8,591 nucleotides of DNA from the NCBI GenBank assembly GCA_025453925.1, contig JALOPK010000130.1:1-8591 (forward strand), written 5' to 3'. Below, piece by piece: positions 1-8,591 of the stretch. How positions within the stretch are numbered: the stretch's first letter is position 1; each line of letters opens with the position of its first letter. The translations under genes were made by a program, and so were the position numbers. The notes under the pieces were generated by a model. The model was not told where the DNA came from. It was given only the letters and a program-made list of their open reading frames with translations, and ran no database searches. This stretch comes from Candidatus Eiseniibacteriota bacterium (GTDB lineage Bacteria; JAFGKV01).

Positions 1-989
1 ACGCCATGTGGCAGGCGATGGTCATCACCAGCAGGGGCTGCCCCTACAGCTGCACCTACTGCTACAACCATGTATACAAGAAACTGTACGAAGGTCTCGG
101 GCGCGTCGTGAGACGTCGGAGCGTCGATCATGTCATGCAGGAGCTGCGGGCTGTCCGCGCGCATCGCTGCTACCGTTTCGTGCGGTTCCTCGACGATCTC
201 TTCATCCTGGATCCGGCATGGGTCGAGGAGTTCGCCGTCGCCTACCGGCGCGACATCGGGCTCCCGTTCTCCTGCATGGTCCGCGCCAACCACGTTACAC
301 CAGGAATCGTGAAGAACCTCCGGGACGCGGGATGCTGGCGGGTGCAGATGGGGCTGGAGTCGGGTGACGACTATGTGCGGAACACGATCTTCAAGCGCAG
401 CATGGCGGAGGAGGAAATCGTCGGCGCTGCCCGATTGCTGAGTGAGGCGGGAATCAAGGTCGTGACGGGGAATATCGTCGGGGCTCCGGGCAGCACCTTC
501 GAGGCTGACCTGAAGACCCTTCGTCTCAACATGCGGATACGACCTGCCTATGCGGGTGTCGCACTCCTGCAGCCCTACCCGGGGACGGAAATCTACCAGT
601 GCGCCCAGGACATGGGCATGTTGGACCCCGCGAGCCTCGATCTCACCCAGTCGACGGTGAGCCGCGTGTCGACCCTGCGGTACGGGAGCCGCAAGGAGAA
701 GAGCCGCATAGAGAACCTGCAGAAGCTCTTCTTCATCCCCGTCGAATTCCCGCCGCTGCTTCCCGTGGCCATGCTGCTCATGCAGCTTCCGGCCAATCGG
801 GTATTCCACTTCGTGTTTTCCCGATGGGTCAACTACGCCCAGTACTTCCGATGCATTCCACCGAAGGTCGGCTGGAGAAGCGTGCTCAAGCGATCCCTGC
901 TGTACACTCGGCTTGCCGCTCTCCTTGCGAGAGCCCGCATTCCGGCGCGCGCCACCGCCGTAGCTCCCCCCACCGGCCAGGGAGGATAG
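1..989 (+). CDS. B12-binding-type radical SAM enzyme, 3' part (5' end outside window)
   Basis: The frame is open to the left edge. The first Met in the window, at position 6, lies only 11 residues before the cluster cysteines, so it is unlikely to be the true start. Numbering from that Met, C12-x3-C16-x2-C19 in GCPYSCTYCYN is the radical SAM [4Fe-4S]/SAM signature. FLDDLF (61-66), MGLESG (115-120) and QPYPGTEIY (189-197) are landmarks of the family in which a cobalamin-binding domain of roughly 150-200 residues precedes the radical SAM barrel. That domain would lie upstream and cannot be seen, so B12 dependence is inferred. Members perform C-methylations, ring rearrangements and similar reactions on lipids, sugars and antibiotics, and many are uncharacterised. 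After the barrel comes a hydrophobic stretch (about 241-271), possibly a membrane- or lipid-contacting segment, then a basic tail. It is followed by a 181-bp gap, so it may not share a transcript with the genes downstream. Substrate unknown. Confidence 0.85.
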   Translation, partial: AMWQAMVITSRGCPYSCTYCYNHVYKKLYEGLGRVVRRRSVDHVMQELRAVRAHRCYRFVRFLDDLFILDPAWVEEFAVAYRRDIGLPFSCMVRANHVTPGIVKNLRDAGCWRVQMGLESGDDYVRNTIFKRSMAEEEIVGAARLLSEAGIKVVTGNIVGAPGSTFEADLKTLRLNMRIRPAYAGVALLQPYPGTEIYQCAQDMGMLDPASLDLTQSTVSRVSTLRYGSRKEKSRIENLQKLFFIPVEFPPLLPVAMLLMQLPANRVFHFVFSRWVNYAQYFRCIPPKVGWRSVLKRSLLYTRLAALLARARIPARATAVAPPTGQGG

Positions 990-1104
990 GCCCCCATCCG
1001 GTGCAGGGCTTAACTCGCGCTGCCCGCCAGACACATGCGAGCGATGCGACATCCTCCCCGTGACGCCGGAGCGAAGGGCCGTACGAGGTCGCAGTGACGA
1101 GATC

Positions 1105-1138
1105 GCCATCCGTCCGGCAGCCCGTGGGAACGGATGGC
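1105..1138. repeat. Perfect 9-bp inverted repeat in the 181-bp spacer
   Basis: GCCATCCGT (1105-1113) is exactly complementary to ACGGATGGC (1130-1138), with 16 nt between the arms. It lies 32 bp upstream of the ligase start, in the only sizeable gap of the window (990-1170). No T-run follows it (the next bases are CCTCTTCCCC), so it is not a canonical intrinsic terminator. It could be a hairpin in the ligase mRNA leader, a transcription attenuator or a regulator-binding site. The rest of the spacer has a weaker 6-bp pair (CACCGG 971-976 with CCGGTG 998-1003) spanning the stop codon of the upstream gene. I see no recognisable -35/-10 promoter and no convincing gene there. Confidence 0.45.
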
Positions 1139-1170
1139 CCTCTTCCCCGTGATGCCGCGGGGGCGGCACG

Positions 1171-2460
1171 ATGAAACCGTGGCACCTGGTCCATCTGCAG
1201 CGAATGCTTCGGGACCAGTGGAAGAGCCCCGAGGAACTCGCCGACATCCAGAACGCCAAGCTGAGGCAATTGATACGCCACGCCCATGCTCGTGTTCCCG
1301 TCTACCGCAGGCTCTTCGACGAGGCGGGCATCCGCCCGTCCGACATCCAGACGGTGGATGATCTCCCCCGCATTCCGATCATGTCTCGGAGGACGTTGCA
1401 CGAGAGCCCACTGGAGGACAGACTCGCCCGGGGTGTCGAGCCCGATCGATGCCGCCAGTCCGCCACCAGCGGCACCACCGGTATTCCGCTCAAGCTCCAC
1501 GTAACTCCCCGTGACGCGACGTTGAAGAGCCTCACCTGGGCCAGGGCCTTTCTCTCCAGGGGGATGCGGCCATGGGACAGGATGGTGGCCTTCATCGGCC
1601 AGGAACACGTCAGAACCGCATCGTCGTGGTATGAACGAGTCGGGCTGTGGCGGCGCCGGGAGGTCTCCACCTGGGCAGGTCCGGAGGCGTGGGTTCATGA
1701 GATCCGCCAGTGGAGGCCCCGGGCGCTCGTCGGGTACGTGATGACCCTGAGGCTCCTCGCCGATCACCTGCTGAGAGCCGGCATCGACGACGTCACGCCT
1801 TCTCTGGTGTTCCACAGCTCGGCGGTGCTGGACGATGTTTCCCGGCGGTTTCTTGAGGGTACTCTGCGTACTCGCATTGTGGATATTTACGGTTCCGACG
1901 AAGCGGGCTGCATTGCCTGGGAGTGTGGCGCCTGCCGGGGGTATCATGTCTCGTCCGATGTCCTTGTCGTCGAGCTGCTCAGGAACGGGAACCGGGTGTC
2001 GCCGGGTGAGGAGGGCGAGGTGATCATCACGAACCTGCACGCCTACGCCATGCCCTTCATCCGTTATGCCCAGGGTGACGTGGCGCGCATGTCCACGGAA
2101 CCCTCTGCGTGCGGCCGTGGACTGCCGCTCCTCGAACGGATAGAAGGACGCACCGACGACTTCCTCGTGCTCCGGGGGGGGAAGATGATCTCACCCCATC
2201 CGGTCTATCATTGCATCGATCACGTCCCCGGGATCGCGCGATGGAAGGCCGTCCAGCACGCCGTGGATCAGCTCACGGTGTACATCGAACTGGAGAGGCG
2301 TCACGAGCCTGCCGCCATCCACGGCGCCGTTCGCCGCAATCTGCAGGCCCTTCTCGGGCCAGAGGTGGCGCTCACCGTGGAAACCGTGGAGTGTCTTCCG
2401 GTCGACCCATCGGCGAAGTTCAGGGTCGTGACCTCCACGGTGGGGGCGGTGCTGACGTGA
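1171..2460 (+). CDS. PaaK/CapK-like adenylate-forming ligase
   Basis: This 429-residue protein resembles the phenylacetate-CoA ligase/CapK branch of adenylate-forming enzymes, which activate a carboxylic acid with ATP and pass it to CoA or another nucleophile. An N-terminal segment typical of the branch (LRQLIRHAHARVPVYRRLFD, 31-50) is followed by the ATP-binding loop SATSGTTG (97-104), the motif YGSDEAG (240-246), RYAQGD (298-303, ribose-binding Asp303), the hinge IEGRTDD (324-330) and a C-terminal PSAKFR whose Lys416 is in the usual catalytic-lysine position. All key elements are present and the length is normal. C247, C252 and C255 with C314 before GRGLP could hold a structural metal, which is inference. 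CapK-like members are frequent in capsule clusters, but their substrates are mostly unknown. No phenylacetate-degradation genes are nearby, so a role in acylating or aminoacylating a glycan precursor is likelier. The ATG has a G-rich stretch (1159-1163) 7 nt upstream. The stop overlaps the next gene as GTGA. Confidence 0.9.
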   Translation: MKPWHLVHLQRMLRDQWKSPEELADIQNAKLRQLIRHAHARVPVYRRLFDEAGIRPSDIQTVDDLPRIPIMSRRTLHESPLEDRLARGVEPDRCRQSATSGTTGIPLKLHVTPRDATLKSLTWARAFLSRGMRPWDRMVAFIGQEHVRTASSWYERVGLWRRREVSTWAGPEAWVHEIRQWRPRALVGYVMTLRLLADHLLRAGIDDVTPSLVFHSSAVLDDVSRRFLEGTLRTRIVDIYGSDEAGCIAWECGACRGYHVSSDVLVVELLRNGNRVSPGEEGEVIITNLHAYAMPFIRYAQGDVARMSTEPSACGRGLPLLERIEGRTDDFLVLRGGKMISPHPVYHCIDHVPGIARWKAVQHAVDQLTVYIELERRHEPAAIHGAVRRNLQALLGPEVALTVETVECLPVDPSAKFRVVTSTVGAVLT

Positions 2461-3587
2461 GTTCAAACGCGAAACGCCCAAGCCCCGGCGCCGCCGCACG
2501 GACTCTTGGGCTGCTCCGGCTCCCCGCGCAGTGGTTTCTCTACAACGTGCGCCCGCGTTTTCGCCGCCGGCCGCTGTACCCCAGGGCGATCTGCGTCTAT
2601 GTGACGTACCGATGCAATGTACACTGCCGGATGTGCGGGATCTGGAAGATGAGTGCCAAGTACCGTGATTCGGAGTTATCCCTCGACCAGTTCGACCGGG
2701 TCTTCGCCGATCCGCTCTTCCGCTCCATCGAACTGTTCAACATCAACGGAGGGGAACCGAATCTGCGGGAGGATCTGGTCGATATCACTCGCGCGGCCCT
2801 GGCCAGACTCCCCCGGCTGCAGGCGGTCTCGCTGAACTCCAATGGCATCCCCGCTGCCCGAACCATCGCAAATGTGGATGCCATCGCCGCACTGTGCCGC
2901 GACCGGGGAGTTCGATTCTCCGTGTCGCTTTCGCTTCACGCCCTGGGAGAGGAGTTTGACCGGATCGCGGGAAGCCATGGAGCGTTCGCCCACGTGGACG
3001 AGTCCTTCCGGGGTCTCCGGGGCATGAGAGACGCCCGGGGGTTCTTTCTCTCCGCCAATTGTGTGATTACGGGTCTCAATGTCCGGTACCTTGATCGCGT
3101 TCTGGCCTGGGGGCAGGAGGAAACGATCCCGGTGAGCTTCGTGCTCGGTGAGGTGCGGGACAGGTTCAACAACGCCTCCATGGAGGATGACGTCACCCTC
3201 GGCCCCCACGAGAGGCCCCTTGCCGTCTCATTCCTCAGGCGCCTGTCTGAGTCACGGGGGGTGCACGTGCAACACGCCTTCAGGTACCGGGAGCTGGCAA
3301 ACATGCTCGAACACGGCCGCGCGAGGCGCCTCGCCTGTCACTACCTCATGGGAGGGGTCATCCTCGGTTCGGACGGTCAGTTGTACTACTGCAAGCACAG
3401 TGGGCCCATCGGCAACAGCCTCGATCGGTCGGCGGAGGAGATCTACCTCGACGCCGACAATCTTCGTTACCGCAGCCGCGACATCCAGGGGCGGATCTGC
3501 CCCGTCTGCCTGCCCAATACCTACAACCGCATGGAAGTCGAGAAGGACTTGCTCATGGTGGGACGATTCCTGTGTCTGGGCCGCTGA
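2457..3587 (+). CDS. Radical SAM enzyme with C-terminal SPASM/twitch-like auxiliary-cluster region
   Basis: A 376-residue radical SAM protein. The frame is open further upstream to 2109, but that part lies inside the ligase gene. The GTG at 2457 overlaps the ligase stop by 4 bp and is the natural start, since the first in-frame ATG falls inside the cluster motif. VTYRCNVHCRMC carries C53-x3-C57-x2-C60, which binds the [4Fe-4S] cluster and SAM, and NGGE (97-100) is the SAM-contacting motif. A basic, partly hydrophobic leader of about 45 residues precedes the barrel. The C-terminal region holds C294, C312, C348 and C351: C-x12-G-x4-C matches the opening of the SPASM/twitch pattern, but the later SPASM cysteines are missing. 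One auxiliary Fe-S cluster is therefore predicted. Twitch enzymes include BtrN (aminocyclitol dehydrogenation) and MoaA. In this setting a sugar or lipid-linked glycan substrate is a reasonable inference; the reaction is unknown. It closely resembles the gene at 7052-8032. Confidence 0.88.
   Translation: MSSNAKRPSPGAAARTLGLLRLPAQWFLYNVRPRFRRRPLYPRAICVYVTYRCNVHCRMCGIWKMSAKYRDSELSLDQFDRVFADPLFRSIELFNINGGEPNLREDLVDITRAALARLPRLQAVSLNSNGIPAARTIANVDAIAALCRDRGVRFSVSLSLHALGEEFDRIAGSHGAFAHVDESFRGLRGMRDARGFFLSANCVITGLNVRYLDRVLAWGQEETIPVSFVLGEVRDRFNNASMEDDVTLGPHERPLAVSFLRRLSESRGVHVQHAFRYRELANMLEHGRARRLACHYLMGGVILGSDGQLYYCKHSGPIGNSLDRSAEEIYLDADNLRYRSRDIQGRICPVCLPNTYNRMEVEKDLLMVGRFLCLGR
3557..3563 (+). 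promoter_or_regulatory. Probable ribosome binding site that decides the methyltransferase start
   Basis: GGTGGGA lies 8 nt before the GTG at 3572. No in-frame ATG or GTG occurs between 3572 and the SAM-binding region, and the first in-frame ATG is at about codon 171. This site therefore supports the GTG start inside the end of the radical SAM gene. Confidence 0.4.
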
Positions 3588-4522
3588 ACGCCGCCGCAGG
3601 CGGAGAGCCCGTTCCGCCAGTCCTGACCAGCCGGCGTGTTGCGGGTCTGAGCAATGAGGAACTCGTCTGGCTCTTCGCGCGGTTGTTCGTTGAGGAATTG
3701 TCGTTGAGGGAGACCGCCGGCGCCGGGACAGAGGCCCTGAGGTCATACTACGGGCATCTCCTCACCGACGGGGGGCTGTTTCCCCTGGGTGTCTTGGGCC
3801 AATCGCTCCGGCTCGCTCCGGCGCTGGCGCGCGCTCGAGCGCTCCAGAAAGGCGCCAGGGTGCTCGACACCGGCTGCGGGTACGGCAGCGAGAGCTTGCT
3901 GTTTGCCCTCACCGGTACAGCGACAGTCGGAGTCGAGCTGGTCGAAGAGCGAGTCGCGATTGCTCGCTCCAGAATCGGGTTCTACCAGTCGCGCTGCGGC
4001 TTCCCGCTGGCAGTGGACTTCCTGAATGCTAACATATTCCGCTACCTGGAACGGGCGGCACCTTTCGATCTGATCTTCACCATGGAGGCCATTTCCCACA
4101 TCTACCCGGCTGATCGATTCCTGCGCCTTGCGCGGGAGAGGCTCACGCCGGGGGGATGCATCGTCATCACCGACCCCAACAGCGTGAATCCTCTGGCGTG
4201 GGCACGGAGCGTCCGGATACGCGGATCGCTCCGGCACCGCCCCCACCAGCGTTTCGCCGATCCGGAAACCGGACGGCCGGTGGACTACGGGCAAGAACAG
4301 GTGCTCTCGGTGAACCGGCTGTGCCGGCTCCTCGACGAGTGCGGTTTCTCGGTGGAGGAGGCGGTGGTGTCCGGGTTCCTGTGCACGTCGCTGCTCCCGA
4401 GGACCATCGCCCATGATCCAATCACGTACCGGCTTCTTCGAAGGATGCACGGGGTGATCTCTCGAATCCCCGCACTCCGCTCGCTGGGTTCCATCTACAC
4501 GGTGGTCGGCAGGAAGCGGTGA
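3572..4522 (+). CDS. Class I SAM-dependent methyltransferase
   Basis: A 316-residue protein with a Rossmann-type SAM-binding fold. Motif I is VLDTGCGYGSE (97-107), with the acidic residue that binds the SAM ribose at the end of the second strand (E122 in VGVELVEER). FDLIFTMEAISHI (165-177) forms the post-II region, and LTPGGCIVITDPN (191-203) is the strand after the PGG turn. This layout resembles the Methyltransf_11/UbiE-like group that methylates small molecules or sugars at O, N or C. An N-terminal helical region (about 25-95) precedes the core, and a region of about 100 residues follows it, both suited to substrate recognition. The GTG start overlaps the preceding radical SAM gene by 16 bp, indicating coupled translation. 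Its position between glycan genes suggests methylation of a sugar or a glycan end, but the acceptor cannot be told from sequence. It has no signal peptide or membrane segment, so it is probably cytoplasmic. Confidence 0.88.
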   Translation: MSGPLNAAAGGEPVPPVLTSRRVAGLSNEELVWLFARLFVEELSLRETAGAGTEALRSYYGHLLTDGGLFPLGVLGQSLRLAPALARARALQKGARVLDTGCGYGSESLLFALTGTATVGVELVEERVAIARSRIGFYQSRCGFPLAVDFLNANIFRYLERAAPFDLIFTMEAISHIYPADRFLRLARERLTPGGCIVITDPNSVNPLAWARSVRIRGSLRHRPHQRFADPETGRPVDYGQEQVLSVNRLCRLLDECGFSVEEAVVSGFLCTSLLPRTIAHDPITYRLLRRMHGVISRIPALRSLGSIYTVVGRKR

Positions 4523-4587
4523 TGACGCGAGGCGGGAGTGATGTGCACAGGGGGAAGGGGCGTCGAACCGGCCGGGGGTGGCGGTGA
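4522..4587 (+). CDS. Possible 21-residue coupling ORF between methyltransferase and pyruvyl transferase
   Basis: A tiny frame exactly fills the gap. Its ATG (4522-4524) shares one base with the methyltransferase stop (TGATG), and its TGA (4585-4587) overlaps the GTG at 4584 as GTGA. AGGA at 4511-4514 sits 7 nt before the ATG, a good ribosome binding site. The peptide is short and basic (six Arg, one Lys and six Gly in 21 residues) and matches no family I know. It may serve only to carry ribosomes from one gene to the next. GC-rich sequence produces such frames by chance, so it is offered as a candidate only. Confidence 0.25.
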   Translation: MTRGGSDVHRGKGRRTGRGWR

Positions 4588-5840
4588 GACTGCTGCTTCT
4601 CAACACGCACTCGGCCCTCAACTCCGGCGATCTGGCCATCACCCTGGCCGAGATGGAGATCCTGAGCAGCCTCAACCCGAGATCCATCACCATCACGAGC
4701 CGGACGCCGGCCCTTGATCGGCCCGCGCTTGCTCCCTGGAGTCCCCGGGTGCTGCCGCCCCTCATCCCTGCTCCCAGCGTGTTCGTGGGCCGCGCCGCCA
4801 CGCTGACCGGCTGCGCGATGAACTTGTGCCAGATGGGCGACAAGTCGGCGCTGATCCGGGAGATGCGGCGCTGCGACCTGGTCATCAGCAGCGGGGGCGG
4901 GTATTTCTGGTCGAATAGGCGGGGCTTTCCGGGTCCGATGTTCCTGCAGAACTACCTCCACCTCTATCTGGTCAAGCTTCTGATGAAGCCGATGGTGCTC
5001 TTCCCCCAGTCGCTCGGGCCGGCCTTCAATGCCACCGCGCGGCGGATGCTGGGGAGTGTTCTGTCGAGCGGTGAGGTCACGAGGGTGTTCGTGAGGGAAC
5101 GCTTGTCGCTGGCCTTTCTCCAAGGGCTGCTGCCCGAGCGCACCATGAAGGAGAAGGTAGAACTGTGCGGGGATGTGGCGTTCTGTCTCGAAACTCGTCC
5201 TGACGCGAGCTCGTTGCCGGCCGGGCCGGATCTACCCGCTCCGATCATCGCCGTGACGGTTCGGCGATGGGATTTTCCCGAAGTCCGGGAGACGGCGGAA
5301 AAGTCGAGGCTGCAGGACGCCTACCTCGACGCCCTTGCAACTGCCTGCGCGACGGTCGGCCGGCGGCACGGCGGCTCAGTGCTGGTCTTCCCCCAGTCCC
5401 GCGGTCCCGGGGAGTTCGAAGATGACCGGCCGGTCTCCCGCGGGTTCGCGCAGCGGCTGGCAGCCAAGGCGCCCGATCTGCCCGTGCAGTATGTGCCTCT
5501 TCCGGACACGGCCTCGCCGTTCGATATCATACGTCTTCTCACGCAGGCGCACCTGGTCGTGGCCACCCGGTTCCACTCGGCGATCCTTGGTTTTCTTGCC
5601 GGCGTGCCGGCGGTCTCGATCGCCTATCAGCCGAAGAGCCGGGGCATCATGGAGGAAATGGGGTTCGACGAGCTGACGATCGACATATCGGCGGTGGACG
5701 CGAACCGGCTGATCGAAATGATGTCTCGAGTCCTTGATGACCACGCCTCGATGGCGGCGGACATCAGGGATCGGGTCATGGGTCTGCGCCGGCAGATTCG
5801 CGAGACGACCCTCAGGGCCGTCAGACATGCGGTGACGTGA
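4584..5840 (+). CDS. Polysaccharide pyruvyl transferase family protein
   Basis: About 418 residues, resembling the WcaK/CsaB-type polysaccharide pyruvyl transferase family, which transfers the enolpyruvyl group of phosphoenolpyruvate to form a pyruvate ketal on a sugar. Visible landmarks are the N-terminal strand and turn MRLLLLNTHSALNSGD (1-16), the glycine loop SSGGGYF (102-108), LFPQSLGP (139-146), VFVRE (168-172) and the C-terminal ATRFHSAILGFLAGVPAVSI (327-346), with the conserved Arg-x-His and a following YQPKSRG (348-354). The double-domain layout and length are normal for the family. A GTG at 4578 would add two residues. I prefer 4584 because a GGGGG run (4574-4578) lies 5 nt upstream and the resulting N-terminus is typical. 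The stop is one base before the next gene's ATG. Pyruvylation adds negative charge to exopolysaccharides and cell-wall glycans. Some family members may do other chemistry, so the donor is inferred from the family. Confidence 0.85.
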   Translation: MRLLLLNTHSALNSGDLAITLAEMEILSSLNPRSITITSRTPALDRPALAPWSPRVLPPLIPAPSVFVGRAATLTGCAMNLCQMGDKSALIREMRRCDLVISSGGGYFWSNRRGFPGPMFLQNYLHLYLVKLLMKPMVLFPQSLGPAFNATARRMLGSVLSSGEVTRVFVRERLSLAFLQGLLPERTMKEKVELCGDVAFCLETRPDASSLPAGPDLPAPIIAVTVRRWDFPEVRETAEKSRLQDAYLDALATACATVGRRHGGSVLVFPQSRGPGEFEDDRPVSRGFAQRLAAKAPDLPVQYVPLPDTASPFDIIRLLTQAHLVVATRFHSAILGFLAGVPAVSIAYQPKSRGIMEEMGFDELTIDISAVDANRLIEMMSRVLDDHASMAADIRDRVMGLRRQIRETTLRAVRHAVT

Positions 5841-5841
5841 G

Positions 5842-7071
5842 ATGAACGTCCTGCTCGTGAACAAGTTCTTCTATCAACGGGGTGGCTCGGAGCGGGTGAT
5901 GTTTGATACCGCCGCCGGCCTTCAGCGCGCCGGTCACCGGGTTGGTTTCTTCTCCATGCACTCTCCCCGCAACCTGCCCAGCGCGTATGCACGACACTTC
6001 GTCTCTGAAGTCGACTTCTCTCTCCCCGGGGCCCGGCAGCGCCTGCGGGGCGCGGGGCGGATGCTGTATTCCTTCGAGGCGAAGCGGAAGCTGGCGGGGC
6101 TGTTGCGGCAGGAGCCGTTTGAGGTCGCGCACCTTCACAATGTCCATCACCAGATTTCCCCCTCCATCCTGCACACGCTCAGGCGGCACAAGATCCCCGT
6201 CGTCATGACCCTCCACGACTACAAGATGATATGCCCAGTCTACACTATGGTGCGCCGCGGGAAGGTATGTGAGTTGTGTCGGGGCGGCGCGTTCCACCAT
6301 TGCCTCACGAACCGGTGTGCGAAGAACTCCCTCCCCGCCAGCCTTCTGAACGCTGTGGAGATGTACCTCCATCACACCATACTGCGCCTCTATCGCCTCG
6401 TCGATGTGTTCGTCAGCCCCAGTCTCTTTCTGAAGAACAAGCTTGCCGAGGCAGGATTCCCCGGGCGGGTAGTGCATCTCAGAAACCCCGTTGAACTGTC
6501 GGCGTATGCGCCGCCATCTCCGGCGGCTGCCCCCTCGATCCTCTACGCCGGGAGGCTTTCTCCCGAGAAGGGCCTGCATACCCTGCTGGATGCCGTAAAG
6601 GGCCTGCCCGCTGCATGCATCCTGGCCGGGGAGGGACCCCTGCGGATCGACCTGGAACGACAGGCCGCGAGTCGGGGCATCGACAATGTGTTGTTTCTGG
6701 GGCACGTGGACACCGGACGGGTCAAGGATCTCATGGCGTCCGCCAGGGCGGTGGTGGTTCCTTCCGAATGGTACGAGAACAATCCGCTGGCGGCGATCGA
6801 GGCATGCGCCGCGGGGAAGCCCGTGATCGGTTCCCGCATCGGCGGTATTCCGGAAGTGGTCGAGCACGGCGTCACCGGTCTGCTCTTCACCCCCGGCAGC
6901 GCCGAGGAGCTGCGCCAGGCCATCATCTTCCTGCTGGAGAATCCGGACGCCGCGCGCGATCTTGGCTGGGCGGCGCGCCTCTTCGCCGAGCGGAACCTTG
7001 GTCTGGACCGGTATCTGGAGCAACTCCTCATGCACTACCAGGAGGCAGTTGATGCCCATAGGACGGACTGA
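5842..7071 (+). CDS. GT4-type glycosyltransferase with internal cysteine cluster
   Basis: A 409-residue GT-B fold glycosyltransferase that moves a sugar, normally from a nucleotide-sugar with retention of configuration, to a growing glycan. The N-terminal domain opens with MNVLLVNKFFYQRGGSE, whose GG (14-15) is the acceptor-side loop. VMTLHDYKMICP (121-132) is typical of one GT4 subgroup. The C-terminal domain has YAGRLSPEKG (235-244, with Lys243), LAGEGPL (261-267) and the E-x7-E pair E312/E320 in EWYENNPLAAIE, which contacts the donor. Between the domains sits C143-x2-C146-x7-C154-x4-C159, plus C131, which looks like a zinc- or Fe-S-binding insert. No membrane helix is evident, so it probably works at the inner face of the membrane. 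Its ATG is one base past the preceding stop, and its end overlaps the next radical SAM gene by 20 bp. Donor and acceptor sugars cannot be assigned. Confidence 0.92.
   Translation: MNVLLVNKFFYQRGGSERVMFDTAAGLQRAGHRVGFFSMHSPRNLPSAYARHFVSEVDFSLPGARQRLRGAGRMLYSFEAKRKLAGLLRQEPFEVAHLHNVHHQISPSILHTLRRHKIPVVMTLHDYKMICPVYTMVRRGKVCELCRGGAFHHCLTNRCAKNSLPASLLNAVEMYLHHTILRLYRLVDVFVSPSLFLKNKLAEAGFPGRVVHLRNPVELSAYAPPSPAAAPSILYAGRLSPEKGLHTLLDAVKGLPAACILAGEGPLRIDLERQAASRGIDNVLFLGHVDTGRVKDLMASARAVVVPSEWYENNPLAAIEACAAGKPVIGSRIGGIPEVVEHGVTGLLFTPGSAEELRQAIIFLLENPDAARDLGWAARLFAERNLGLDRYLEQLLMHYQEAVDAHRTD
7040..7045 (+). promoter_or_regulatory. Strong Shine-Dalgarno sequence fixing the start of the second SPASM-like radical SAM gene
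   Basis: AGGAGG at 7040-7045 is followed by 6 nt and then the ATG at 7052. It lies within the end of the glycosyltransferase gene. It is the clearest ribosome binding site of the window and shows that the longer open frame back to 6962 is not the real gene start. Confidence 0.8.
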
Positions 7072-8032
7072 AGCCGCCGTCATTGTGACCTACCGCTGCA
7101 TGAGCCGATGCGCCATGTGCCACACATGGGAGCATCCCACCCATCCCGACGAGGAGTTCGAGCCGAGCCTGCTTCAGCGGTTGCCGAACCTTGCGTTCTG
7201 CAACATCACCGGCGGCGAACCGTTCATGCGCGACGACATCGACGAGATCATCCGAATCGTGGCAGGGAAGGCGAAGAGGGTGGTGATCTCGACCAACGGG
7301 TATCTCGCTGACCGCATCATCGACGTTGCCAAGGCCAACCCGACGGTCGGCATCCGTATCAGCATTGAGGGCCTCCCCGCCGCCAACGACGAACTGCGGG
7401 GCATGAAAGACGGCTTCGATCATGGCCTTCGCACACTTCTTGCGCTGAAGAGGCTCGGCCTGCGGGACGTCGGCTTCGGTATCACGGTCTCCGACCGGAA
7501 TGCCGGGGACATGCTCGAGCTCTTCGAGCTGGCGGATCTCATGCGGGTCGAGTTCGCCACCGCGATCGTGCACAACTCGTTCTACTTCCACACGGCGGAC
7601 AATGCCATTGCCGATCCAGAGGCGGTGGCATCGCGCTTCAGTAGTCTCGTCGCTCGTCTCTTGCGTTCCCGGCGGGTCAAGAACTGGTTCCGGGCCTATT
7701 TCAACCAGGGTCTGATCGATCGAATCCACGGCCGACCGAGGCCCCTTCCGTGCACCGCCGGTTCGGATTTCTTCTTCCTTGATCCGCGGGCAGAAGTGTT
7801 GCCGTGCAACGGCATGGAGGCACGGACCGGTATGGGCAATCTCCGGGAGACACCGTTCGATGAGCTGTGGAGTTCCCCTCGTGCCGAGGCGGTTCGGGAG
7901 ATGGTTGCGGGATGCGATCGCAACTGCTGGATGATCGGCAGCGCCGGCCCGGCCATGCGGCGTCATTTGGGCAGCGTTGCATGGTGGGTCACTCGTCATC
8001 GTGTGCGGGTGATGCTGGAACCGCGGAGATGA
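7052..8032 (+). CDS. Radical SAM enzyme with C-terminal SPASM/twitch-like region, paralogue of 2457-3587
   Basis: A 326-residue radical SAM protein, placed at 7052 by the strong AGGAGG site. VTYRCMSRCAMC carries C16-x3-C20-x2-C23 for the [4Fe-4S]/SAM site. TGGEPF (53-58) is the SAM-binding motif, ISTNGY (79-84) is a later barrel strand, and RISIEG (102-107) is the strand that in related enzymes contacts SAM. The C-terminal region has C234-x17-C252-x35-C288-x3-C292, predicted to bind one auxiliary Fe-S cluster, with the later SPASM cysteines absent. Unlike its relative at 2457-3587 it has almost no N-terminal leader. It starts 20 bp inside the preceding glycosyltransferase gene and shares an ATGA overlap with the following one, so it is produced together with two glycosyltransferases. 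That context suggests a sugar-nucleotide, lipid-linked sugar or glycan substrate, with oxidation, deoxygenation or epimerisation as candidate reactions. No RiPP precursor peptide is seen beside it. Confidence 0.9.
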   Translation: MPIGRTEAAVIVTYRCMSRCAMCHTWEHPTHPDEEFEPSLLQRLPNLAFCNITGGEPFMRDDIDEIIRIVAGKAKRVVISTNGYLADRIIDVAKANPTVGIRISIEGLPAANDELRGMKDGFDHGLRTLLALKRLGLRDVGFGITVSDRNAGDMLELFELADLMRVEFATAIVHNSFYFHTADNAIADPEAVASRFSSLVARLLRSRRVKNWFRAYFNQGLIDRIHGRPRPLPCTAGSDFFFLDPRAEVLPCNGMEARTGMGNLRETPFDELWSSPRAEAVREMVAGCDRNCWMIGSAGPAMRRHLGSVAWWVTRHRVRVMLEPRR

Positions 8033-8591
8033 AGATCGCCTTCATTGGACAGAAGGGGATCCCCGTCACCTTCGGTGGGGTCGAGTACCACGTTGATGCT
8101 CTCGCCACGGGACTGGCGGCGCGAGGCGAGGATGTCTCGGTCTATGTACGCAGTTGGTACACGCCGAGGAAACTTCAGCGGGTGAATGGGGTGCGTCTCC
8201 TCCACCTGGCGACCATTCGGACGAAGCATCTCGATGCATCGGTGCACAGCCTCTTGTGTTCGCTCCACGTCCTCTTCGCGGGGGCCGACATCGTCCACTA
8301 TCACGGCATCGGCCCGGCTGTGTTTTCCCTGATTCCCAGACTCTTCGGCACGAGGGTGGTGGTGACCGTCCACAGGCTCGACTGGCAGACGGAAAAATGG
8401 GGGAGGATTGCCCGCTGGTTCCTCAGGCTGGGCGAGTACCTTGCGGTGCGGATTCCCGACCGCACCATCGTGGTCTCGGAGGATCTCCAGCGCCATTTTC
8501 GAGAGTGTCACGGGAAGGAAACGGTCCATATCTCCCATGGCATAGAGCTTCCGCATTTGCGTGCCCCGGGCGTCATCCGAGAGAAACACGG
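8029..8591 (+). CDS. GT4-type glycosyltransferase, N-terminal part (cut by right edge)
   Basis: The frame opens with the ATG of an ATGA overlap at the end of the radical SAM gene and stays open to the window end, giving 187 residues. The start MKIAFIGQKGIPVTFGGVEYHV is characteristic of a group of GT4 glycosyltransferases (KGIP followed by GGVE/GGIE, then HV-x3-LA). It continues with VYVRSWYTP (38-46), IVHYHGIGP (88-96), VVVTVHRLDWQTEKW (110-124) and TIVVSEDL (146-153), ending at SHGIE (169-173) as the domain boundary nears. This is the acceptor-binding half of a GT-B fold. The donor-binding half with its E-x7-E motif would lie beyond the window. Members are common in exopolysaccharide and capsule clusters. 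Its sugar specificity cannot be told. Translation is probably coupled to the preceding gene, since the only purine-rich sequence (GGAG, 8025-8028) touches the start codon. Confidence 0.88.
   Translation, partial: MKIAFIGQKGIPVTFGGVEYHVDALATGLAARGEDVSVYVRSWYTPRKLQRVNGVRLLHLATIRTKHLDASVHSLLCSLHVLFAGADIVHYHGIGPAVFSLIPRLFGTRVVVTVHRLDWQTEKWGRIARWFLRLGEYLAVRIPDRTIVVSEDLQRHFRECHGKETVHISHGIELPHLRAPGVIREKH

Follow-up and report, generated by a model that had tools for sequence, protein, structure and literature searches.

Radical SAM enzymes known to act on sugars come mostly from antibiotic pathways, and several of these are relatives of the proteins encoded at the locus described here. The cytosylglucuronate decarboxylase BlsE (7vob) is the joint top structural match of our protein G and the first Foldseek match of protein C (6.9e-10), but identity is only 16–20%, the window has no blasticidin genes and the partners of G are GT4 glycosyltransferases. 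BtrN, which belongs with other twitch-domain sugar dehydrogenases, is matched in its auxiliary-cluster region by both proteins (G 5e-10, C 2.6e-5), although its overall match to G is weaker (Z 14.2, rmsd 3.2, 215 aligned) and the window is not an aminoglycoside cluster. Peptide maturases of the SkfB/SPASM group are the top sequence-profile match for both C and G; here, however, a precursor peptide is not seen, the neighbours are glycosyltransferases and G is without the N-terminal extension found in those enzymes. For a third protein, A, the curated models nearest to the radical SAM domain are those of the cobalamin-type enzymes HpnJ, AprD4 and PhpK, all of which it matches far below cut-off.

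In its remaining genes, the locus resembles polysaccharide clusters that depend on Wzx/Wzy or on an ABC transporter and use a WcaJ-type PHPT. It shares with them GT4 glycosyltransferases, a PF04230 gene, a methyltransferase and a CapK-like ligase, and homologues of its genes adjoin PHPT, Polysacc_synt, Wzy_C or Wzt genes; it differs from them in having three radical SAM genes. Acyl, methyl and pyruvyl groups are ordinary decorations of surface glycans, and the families of genes B, D and E would fit these. We consider radical SAM tailoring of sugars during the assembly of a lipid-linked surface glycan to be the best reading of the locus, and we hold it with moderate confidence.

Gene layout and radical SAM content of the window

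The window, meaning the whole stretch of DNA analysed, coincides with contig C127 (8591 bp) in full; the MAG it comes from is fragmented (3.9 Mb in 502 contigs, 82% complete), and the phylum of that MAG has three genomes in the collection searched. The window's eight genes, A to H, lie on the same strand and are joined by overlaps or short gaps (Table 1), which gives it the structure of an operon. Reading frames overlap by 4 nt between B and C, 16 nt between C and D (a value that depends on taking GTG 3572 as the start of D), 20 nt between F and G and 4 nt between G and H; E and F are spaced by 1 nt, and the gap between A and B is 181 nt. GC content at codon position 3 is 0.76–0.82 in all eight frames and exceeds that at positions 1 and 2, as it should in coding sequence here. 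Pfam, NCBIfam and PDB sequence searches concur with a preliminary description of this DNA in recognizing two glycosyltransferases, a methyltransferase, a pyruvyl transferase family protein and a ligase. No wzx, wzy or transporter gene lies on the 8591-bp window, whose contig stops inside A and H, and no overlapping neighbour contig was found in the MAG (the first 23 and last 22 bases of the window are absent elsewhere in it). The locus's own export and initiation genes are unseen because the contig ends.

Table 1. Genes of the window, with coordinates and family matches
Gene	Coordinates	Strand	Assignment	Principal match
A	3..989	+	Radical SAM, B12-binding type by family match; C-terminal part, 328 aa	PF04055 1.5e-22
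B	1171..2460	+	Putative PaaK/CapK-like adenylate-forming ligase, 429 aa	phmmer against PaaK structures 5.8e-30
C	2457..3587	+	Radical SAM, SPASM/twitch-like C-terminus	PF04055 1.1e-11
D	3572..4522	+	Class I SAM methyltransferase (Methyltransf_23/UbiG-like)	PF13489 1.2e-14
E	4578..5840	+	Polysaccharide pyruvyltransferase-family protein, 420 aa	PF04230 1.8e-27
F	5842..7071	+	GT4 glycosyltransferase, 409 aa	PF00534 1.1e-38
G	7052..8032	+	Radical SAM, one predicted SPASM/twitch-type auxiliary site	PF04055 5e-16, SPASM 4.1e-8
H	8029..8591	+	GT4 glycosyltransferase, cut at contig end, ATGA overlap with G	PF13439 1.1e-18

The three CxxxCxxC motifs that had drawn attention to this DNA have exactly the coordinates first given for them (CPYSCTYC at 39–62 in A, CNVHCRMC at 2613–2636 in C and CMSRCAMC at 7097–7120 in G), and all three proteins pass the PF04055 gathering cut-off of 29.5 bits (A 80.9, C 45.6, G 59.8). 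The whole MAG holds 71 radical SAM domains above cut-off in 3.9 Mb, and by a Poisson estimate at least three would fall within 8591 bp with p ~6e-4 per window, or in about 0.26 windows genome-wide; three such genes alone are therefore unremarkable in this genome. The clustering is real, yet it is habitual in the host, with contigs C222, C354, C378 and C397 also holding three or four radical SAM domains. Our case rests on the overlapping frames and the conserved neighbours rather than on the number of radical SAM genes.

Some of these other contigs have features of their own. In C222 (locus L166, 7531–14504), four radical SAM domains occupy ~7 kb and no glycosyltransferase was recognized by eye, and C397 (L167, 1–3556) has a GT2-like gene after three successive radical SAM genes, which were judged by eye to be of B12 type. 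A further contig of the same MAG, C197 (L156, 442–11772), carries a B12-type and a SPASM-type radical SAM gene, GT4s, a TMEM260-like gene, a GT9 gene and a PaaK-like ligase gene whose product has 31% identity to B.

By domain score and conserved cysteines, protein G belongs to the SPASM/twitch subfamily. It scores 33.8 bits against PF13186 (cut-off 21.5), and seven cysteines are invariant in a 22-member alignment: Cys 16, 20 and 23 of the radical SAM motif and Cys 234, 252, 288 and 292, which are the predicted ligands of an auxiliary [4Fe-4S] site. The AlphaFold model (326 aa) has a confident fold (pLDDT 92.8, pTM 0.90). In structural comparison with VIA-align, BlsE (Z 23.6, rmsd 3.2, 291 aligned) and SkfB (6efn; Z 23.6, rmsd 3.3, 270 aligned) are tied at the top, followed by SuiB (Z 22), anSME (20), MoaA (20), viperins (19, through the shared radical SAM fold), DesII (18) and BtrN (14). 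Because the peptide maturase SkfB ties with BlsE and leads by profile (1.9e-22, against 4e-14 for BlsE and the BtrN auxiliary-domain match given above), the fold leaves the substrate of G unfixed. G begins ~6 residues ahead of its first strand, and SkfB and SuiB, longer maturases, align with it from their own residue ~100. G reaches no cut-off of a curated NCBIfam family and is not a BlsE equivalog by TIGR04466 (34.6 versus 400 bits); its family is widespread and has no curated name.

The preliminary description had counted two SPASM-like radical SAM genes. This holds for G, whereas C has no SPASM match in Pfam at 1e-3 and offers four candidate auxiliary cysteines (294, 312, 348 and 351), only the first of which is invariant among six sequences, one of them truncated; its predicted model reaches a pLDDT of only 74. 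A starts off the contig, so that its N-terminus and any cobalamin domain lie beyond the contig edge, and because it is only a fragment, its comparison with HpnJ (97.9 bits, cut-off 577.6), PhpK (71.8, cut-off 600) and AprD4 (64.2, cut-off 500), the best NCBIfam models, is weak.

Ligase B falls below the Pfam AMP-binding cut-off (18.6 versus 29.9 bits), although solved phenylacetate-CoA ligases match it (Table 1). Its score against an NCBIfam DVU_1553-family ligase is 143.9 bits (cut-off 300), it is not a PaaK phenylacetate-CoA ligase by TIGR02155 (125.6 versus 646.3 bits), and with its SGTTG and YGSDEAG motifs it is best called a putative PaaK/CapK-like ligase. E lies above the PS_pyruv_trans cut-off at 97.4 bits and below those of the curated pyruvyltransferases CsaB (88.4 versus 213.1 bits) and WcaK (67.8 versus 399), and H resembles the rhamnosyltransferase Cps2T, also below cut-off. 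A role in defence was considered and rejected: PADLOC gave a mad2 methyltransferase-domain match for D and weak, partial pVip matches for C and G (28.7 and 30.1 bits over ~90–110 residues).

Conserved gene order and glycan setting across phyla

Homologues of G at 50–60% identity occur on 80 named contigs, whose hosts include Deltaproteobacteria, Nitrospirae, Brocadia, Armatimonadetes, many Lachnospiraceae and other Clostridia, Bacteroidales/Prevotellaceae, Desulfosporosinus and Geomonas; at 35–42% identity, they occur in 6 of 97 other sampled genomes. An F-type GT4 gene lies within 9 kb of G on the same strand in 72 of the 80 named loci and ends less than 400 nt upstream of it in 49, and an H-type GT4 gene starts less than 700 nt downstream of G in 12 and lies up to 6 kb upstream in 50. 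These counts carry no correction for phylogeny, and many of the 80 loci are from Lachnospiraceae. The F-G-H order of the window is found again in genomes G003 and G042 and in several named contigs (for example, L043, L045, L059, L084 and L119), among them contigs from Deltaproteobacteria, Brocadia, Bacteroidaceae and Desulfosporosinus; this gene order is conserved in several phyla. In G068 and G071, the three genes stand together on one strand in the order G-F-H. Greedy ORF calls produced wrong frames in GC-rich loci, and three loci were rechecked with GC3.

A Pfam-confirmed Bac_transf (WcaJ-type) initiating transferase lies near F-G-H in G003, G042 and Desulfosporosinus, and the same Bac_transf sequence cluster is represented in 14 of the 80 G loci. 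Two frequent neighbour clusters at these loci, c3 and c6, had no Pfam match and are therefore not claimed as Wzy or Wzx. Two loci show further radical or redox genes. In the deltaproteobacterial L043, F and G are separated by a B12-binding radical SAM gene (8557–9998) that a frameshift or sequencing error has broken into two overlapping frames. In L084 (Desulfosporosinus), the region 12649–14926 directly downstream of F-G-H has an FrhB/FdhB-type iron-sulfur flavoprotein gene beside a PPT-like gene, and genes of this type are present in several other G loci.

C is rarer than G: at E<=1e-30, six further genomes out of 336 have a homologue, and in the relatives examined, these homologues sit in glycan clusters. 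The locus in G089 has Polysacc_synt (Wzx-type), Wzy_C, GT4 and epimerase genes; that in G019 runs C, PPT, GT4, the order of the window without D, and adds Polysacc_synt; that in G212 has GT2, GT4 and LPG_synthase_TM genes; and that in G071 has GT-like genes recognized by eye only. G042 and G187, from two families of a small phylum (three genomes in the collection), have in common a block of Wzt, GT2, B12-type radical SAM, radical SAM, C-like radical SAM and radical SAM genes at 39–52% identity, and the G042 cluster also has Wzm and a B12-type radical SAM protein with 33% identity to A over 207 aa. With four and six radical SAM genes beside a Wzt ABC transporter gene, these blocks are the strongest sign that glycan clusters with many radical SAM genes are real. 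The six-gene cluster, on contig C48 of G187 (L164, 6850–16342), packs two B12-type and four SPASM/C-like radical SAM genes with GT2 and Wzt into ~9.5 kb; it shares the above block with contig C57 of G042 (L132) and is in itself a stronger case than the window.

Because G and C homologues in other phyla adjoin Bac_transf, Polysacc_synt, Wzy_C or Wzm/Wzt genes, the initial classification of the locus as a glycan cluster stands, and gene order lends good support to this setting. The preliminary description had also looked to recurrence of the ligase, radical SAM, methyltransferase and pyruvyltransferase genes as a unit; this is absent from the C-homologue loci examined among the 336 genomes. The full eight-gene set was not refound, and what recurs is its modules: F-G-H, C-PPT-GT4 in G019, and several radical SAM genes with a glycosyltransferase and Wzt in G042 and G187. 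The two genomes of the same genus or family (G001 and G002) have no close homologue of C or G (best 1.3e-17 and 4.5e-25, respectively), and the cluster is therefore not common to lineage members in the collection.

Alternative readings

Instead of a polysaccharide bound to the cell, the locus might make a secreted small molecule or glycolipid (a glycosylated natural product, for example), in which case B would activate an acid building block and the radical SAM enzymes would act as they do in the biosynthesis of aminoglycoside or nucleoside antibiotics. Such pathways often include PaaK-like ligases and methyltransferases, the flanks of the contig are unread, and A's weak resemblance to AprD4 and HpnJ, like that of G and C to BlsE, points the same way. 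We nevertheless regard such a product as unlikely, given that carrier protein, NRPS/PKS and aminotransferase genes are all absent on the contig and that the genes adjoining G and C homologues in other phyla are Bac_transf, Polysacc_synt, Wzy_C or Wzt. We give very little credence to C and G being RiPP maturases: SkfB, SuiB, CteB and anSME are among their closest solved structures, but neither the gap at 990–1170 nor that at 4523–4577 holds an evident precursor gene, G starts short of the SkfB/SuiB extension and its conserved partners are glycosyltransferases.

Another way to read the window is as an accident of a genome rich in radical SAM genes, three of which became adjacent while doing unrelated jobs, so that only F-G-H would be a functional glycan module. 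The 71 domains of the MAG, the number of such windows expected by chance, the spacing between A and B and the failure of the full set to recur around C homologues are all in keeping with this; set against it are the overlapping frames of B-C-D and F-G-H, the repetition on contig C197 of the combination of B12-type and SPASM-type radical SAM genes with GT4s, a PaaK-like ligase and GT9, and the presence of both C and G homologues in three genomes among the 97 sampled (hypergeometric p ~5e-4, with no correction for lifestyle or threshold choice). Taken together, these observations make an accidental grouping distinctly improbable in our view.

Proposed tailoring of a surface glycan

On the surface-glycan reading that we favour, the window would be the middle part of a capsule, O-antigen or exopolysaccharide operon, in which F and H would extend a glycan chain by adding sugars, probably with polyprenyl diphosphate as its carrier. 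G, which overlapping frames couple to F and H, would probably use a 5'-deoxyadenosyl radical and its auxiliary [4Fe-4S] cluster to oxidize, epimerize or decarboxylate a sugar, before or after transfer; because of this gene coupling and the likeness to BlsE and BtrN, that sugar may be the one that F transfers. C and the partial cobalamin-type A could make further radical changes, which for A might be C-methylation, dehydration or ring remodelling, while D would methylate, E may add pyruvate ketals and B would activate a carboxylic acid for acylation. We infer a sugar as the radical SAM substrate, the order of these steps and each specific reaction from gene context and family membership. The unusually modified sugars or lipid carriers first suggested for this locus are no more than a possible outcome, as the solved structures closest to G comprise peptide maturases (SkfB and SuiB) as well as a sugar-nucleoside enzyme (BlsE).

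No G- or C-family enzyme of known activity appeared in the open-access literature searched, an absence that is weak evidence. Titles and abstract openings there pointed to no radical SAM enzyme in a capsule, O-antigen, Wzx/Wzy or pyruvyl transferase context, and in PMC10599522, the two mentions are table rows.

More tentatively, and as something we think possible rather than probable, some anaerobes may use sets of three to six radical SAM enzymes, of the cobalamin and SPASM types, to remodel the sugars of their surface glycans, with the G family being a widespread group of enzymes that modify sugars or lipid-linked oligosaccharides and are encoded beside GT4 genes, in gut Lachnospiraceae and Bacteroidales among others. 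Because the family is present in culturable gut commensals, the idea is directly testable. If G-family enzymes do act on sugars, capsule and exopolysaccharide assembly would make routine use of radical chemistry across phyla, gut commensals included, and the family would provide candidate enzymes for glycans whose structures have yet to be sought.
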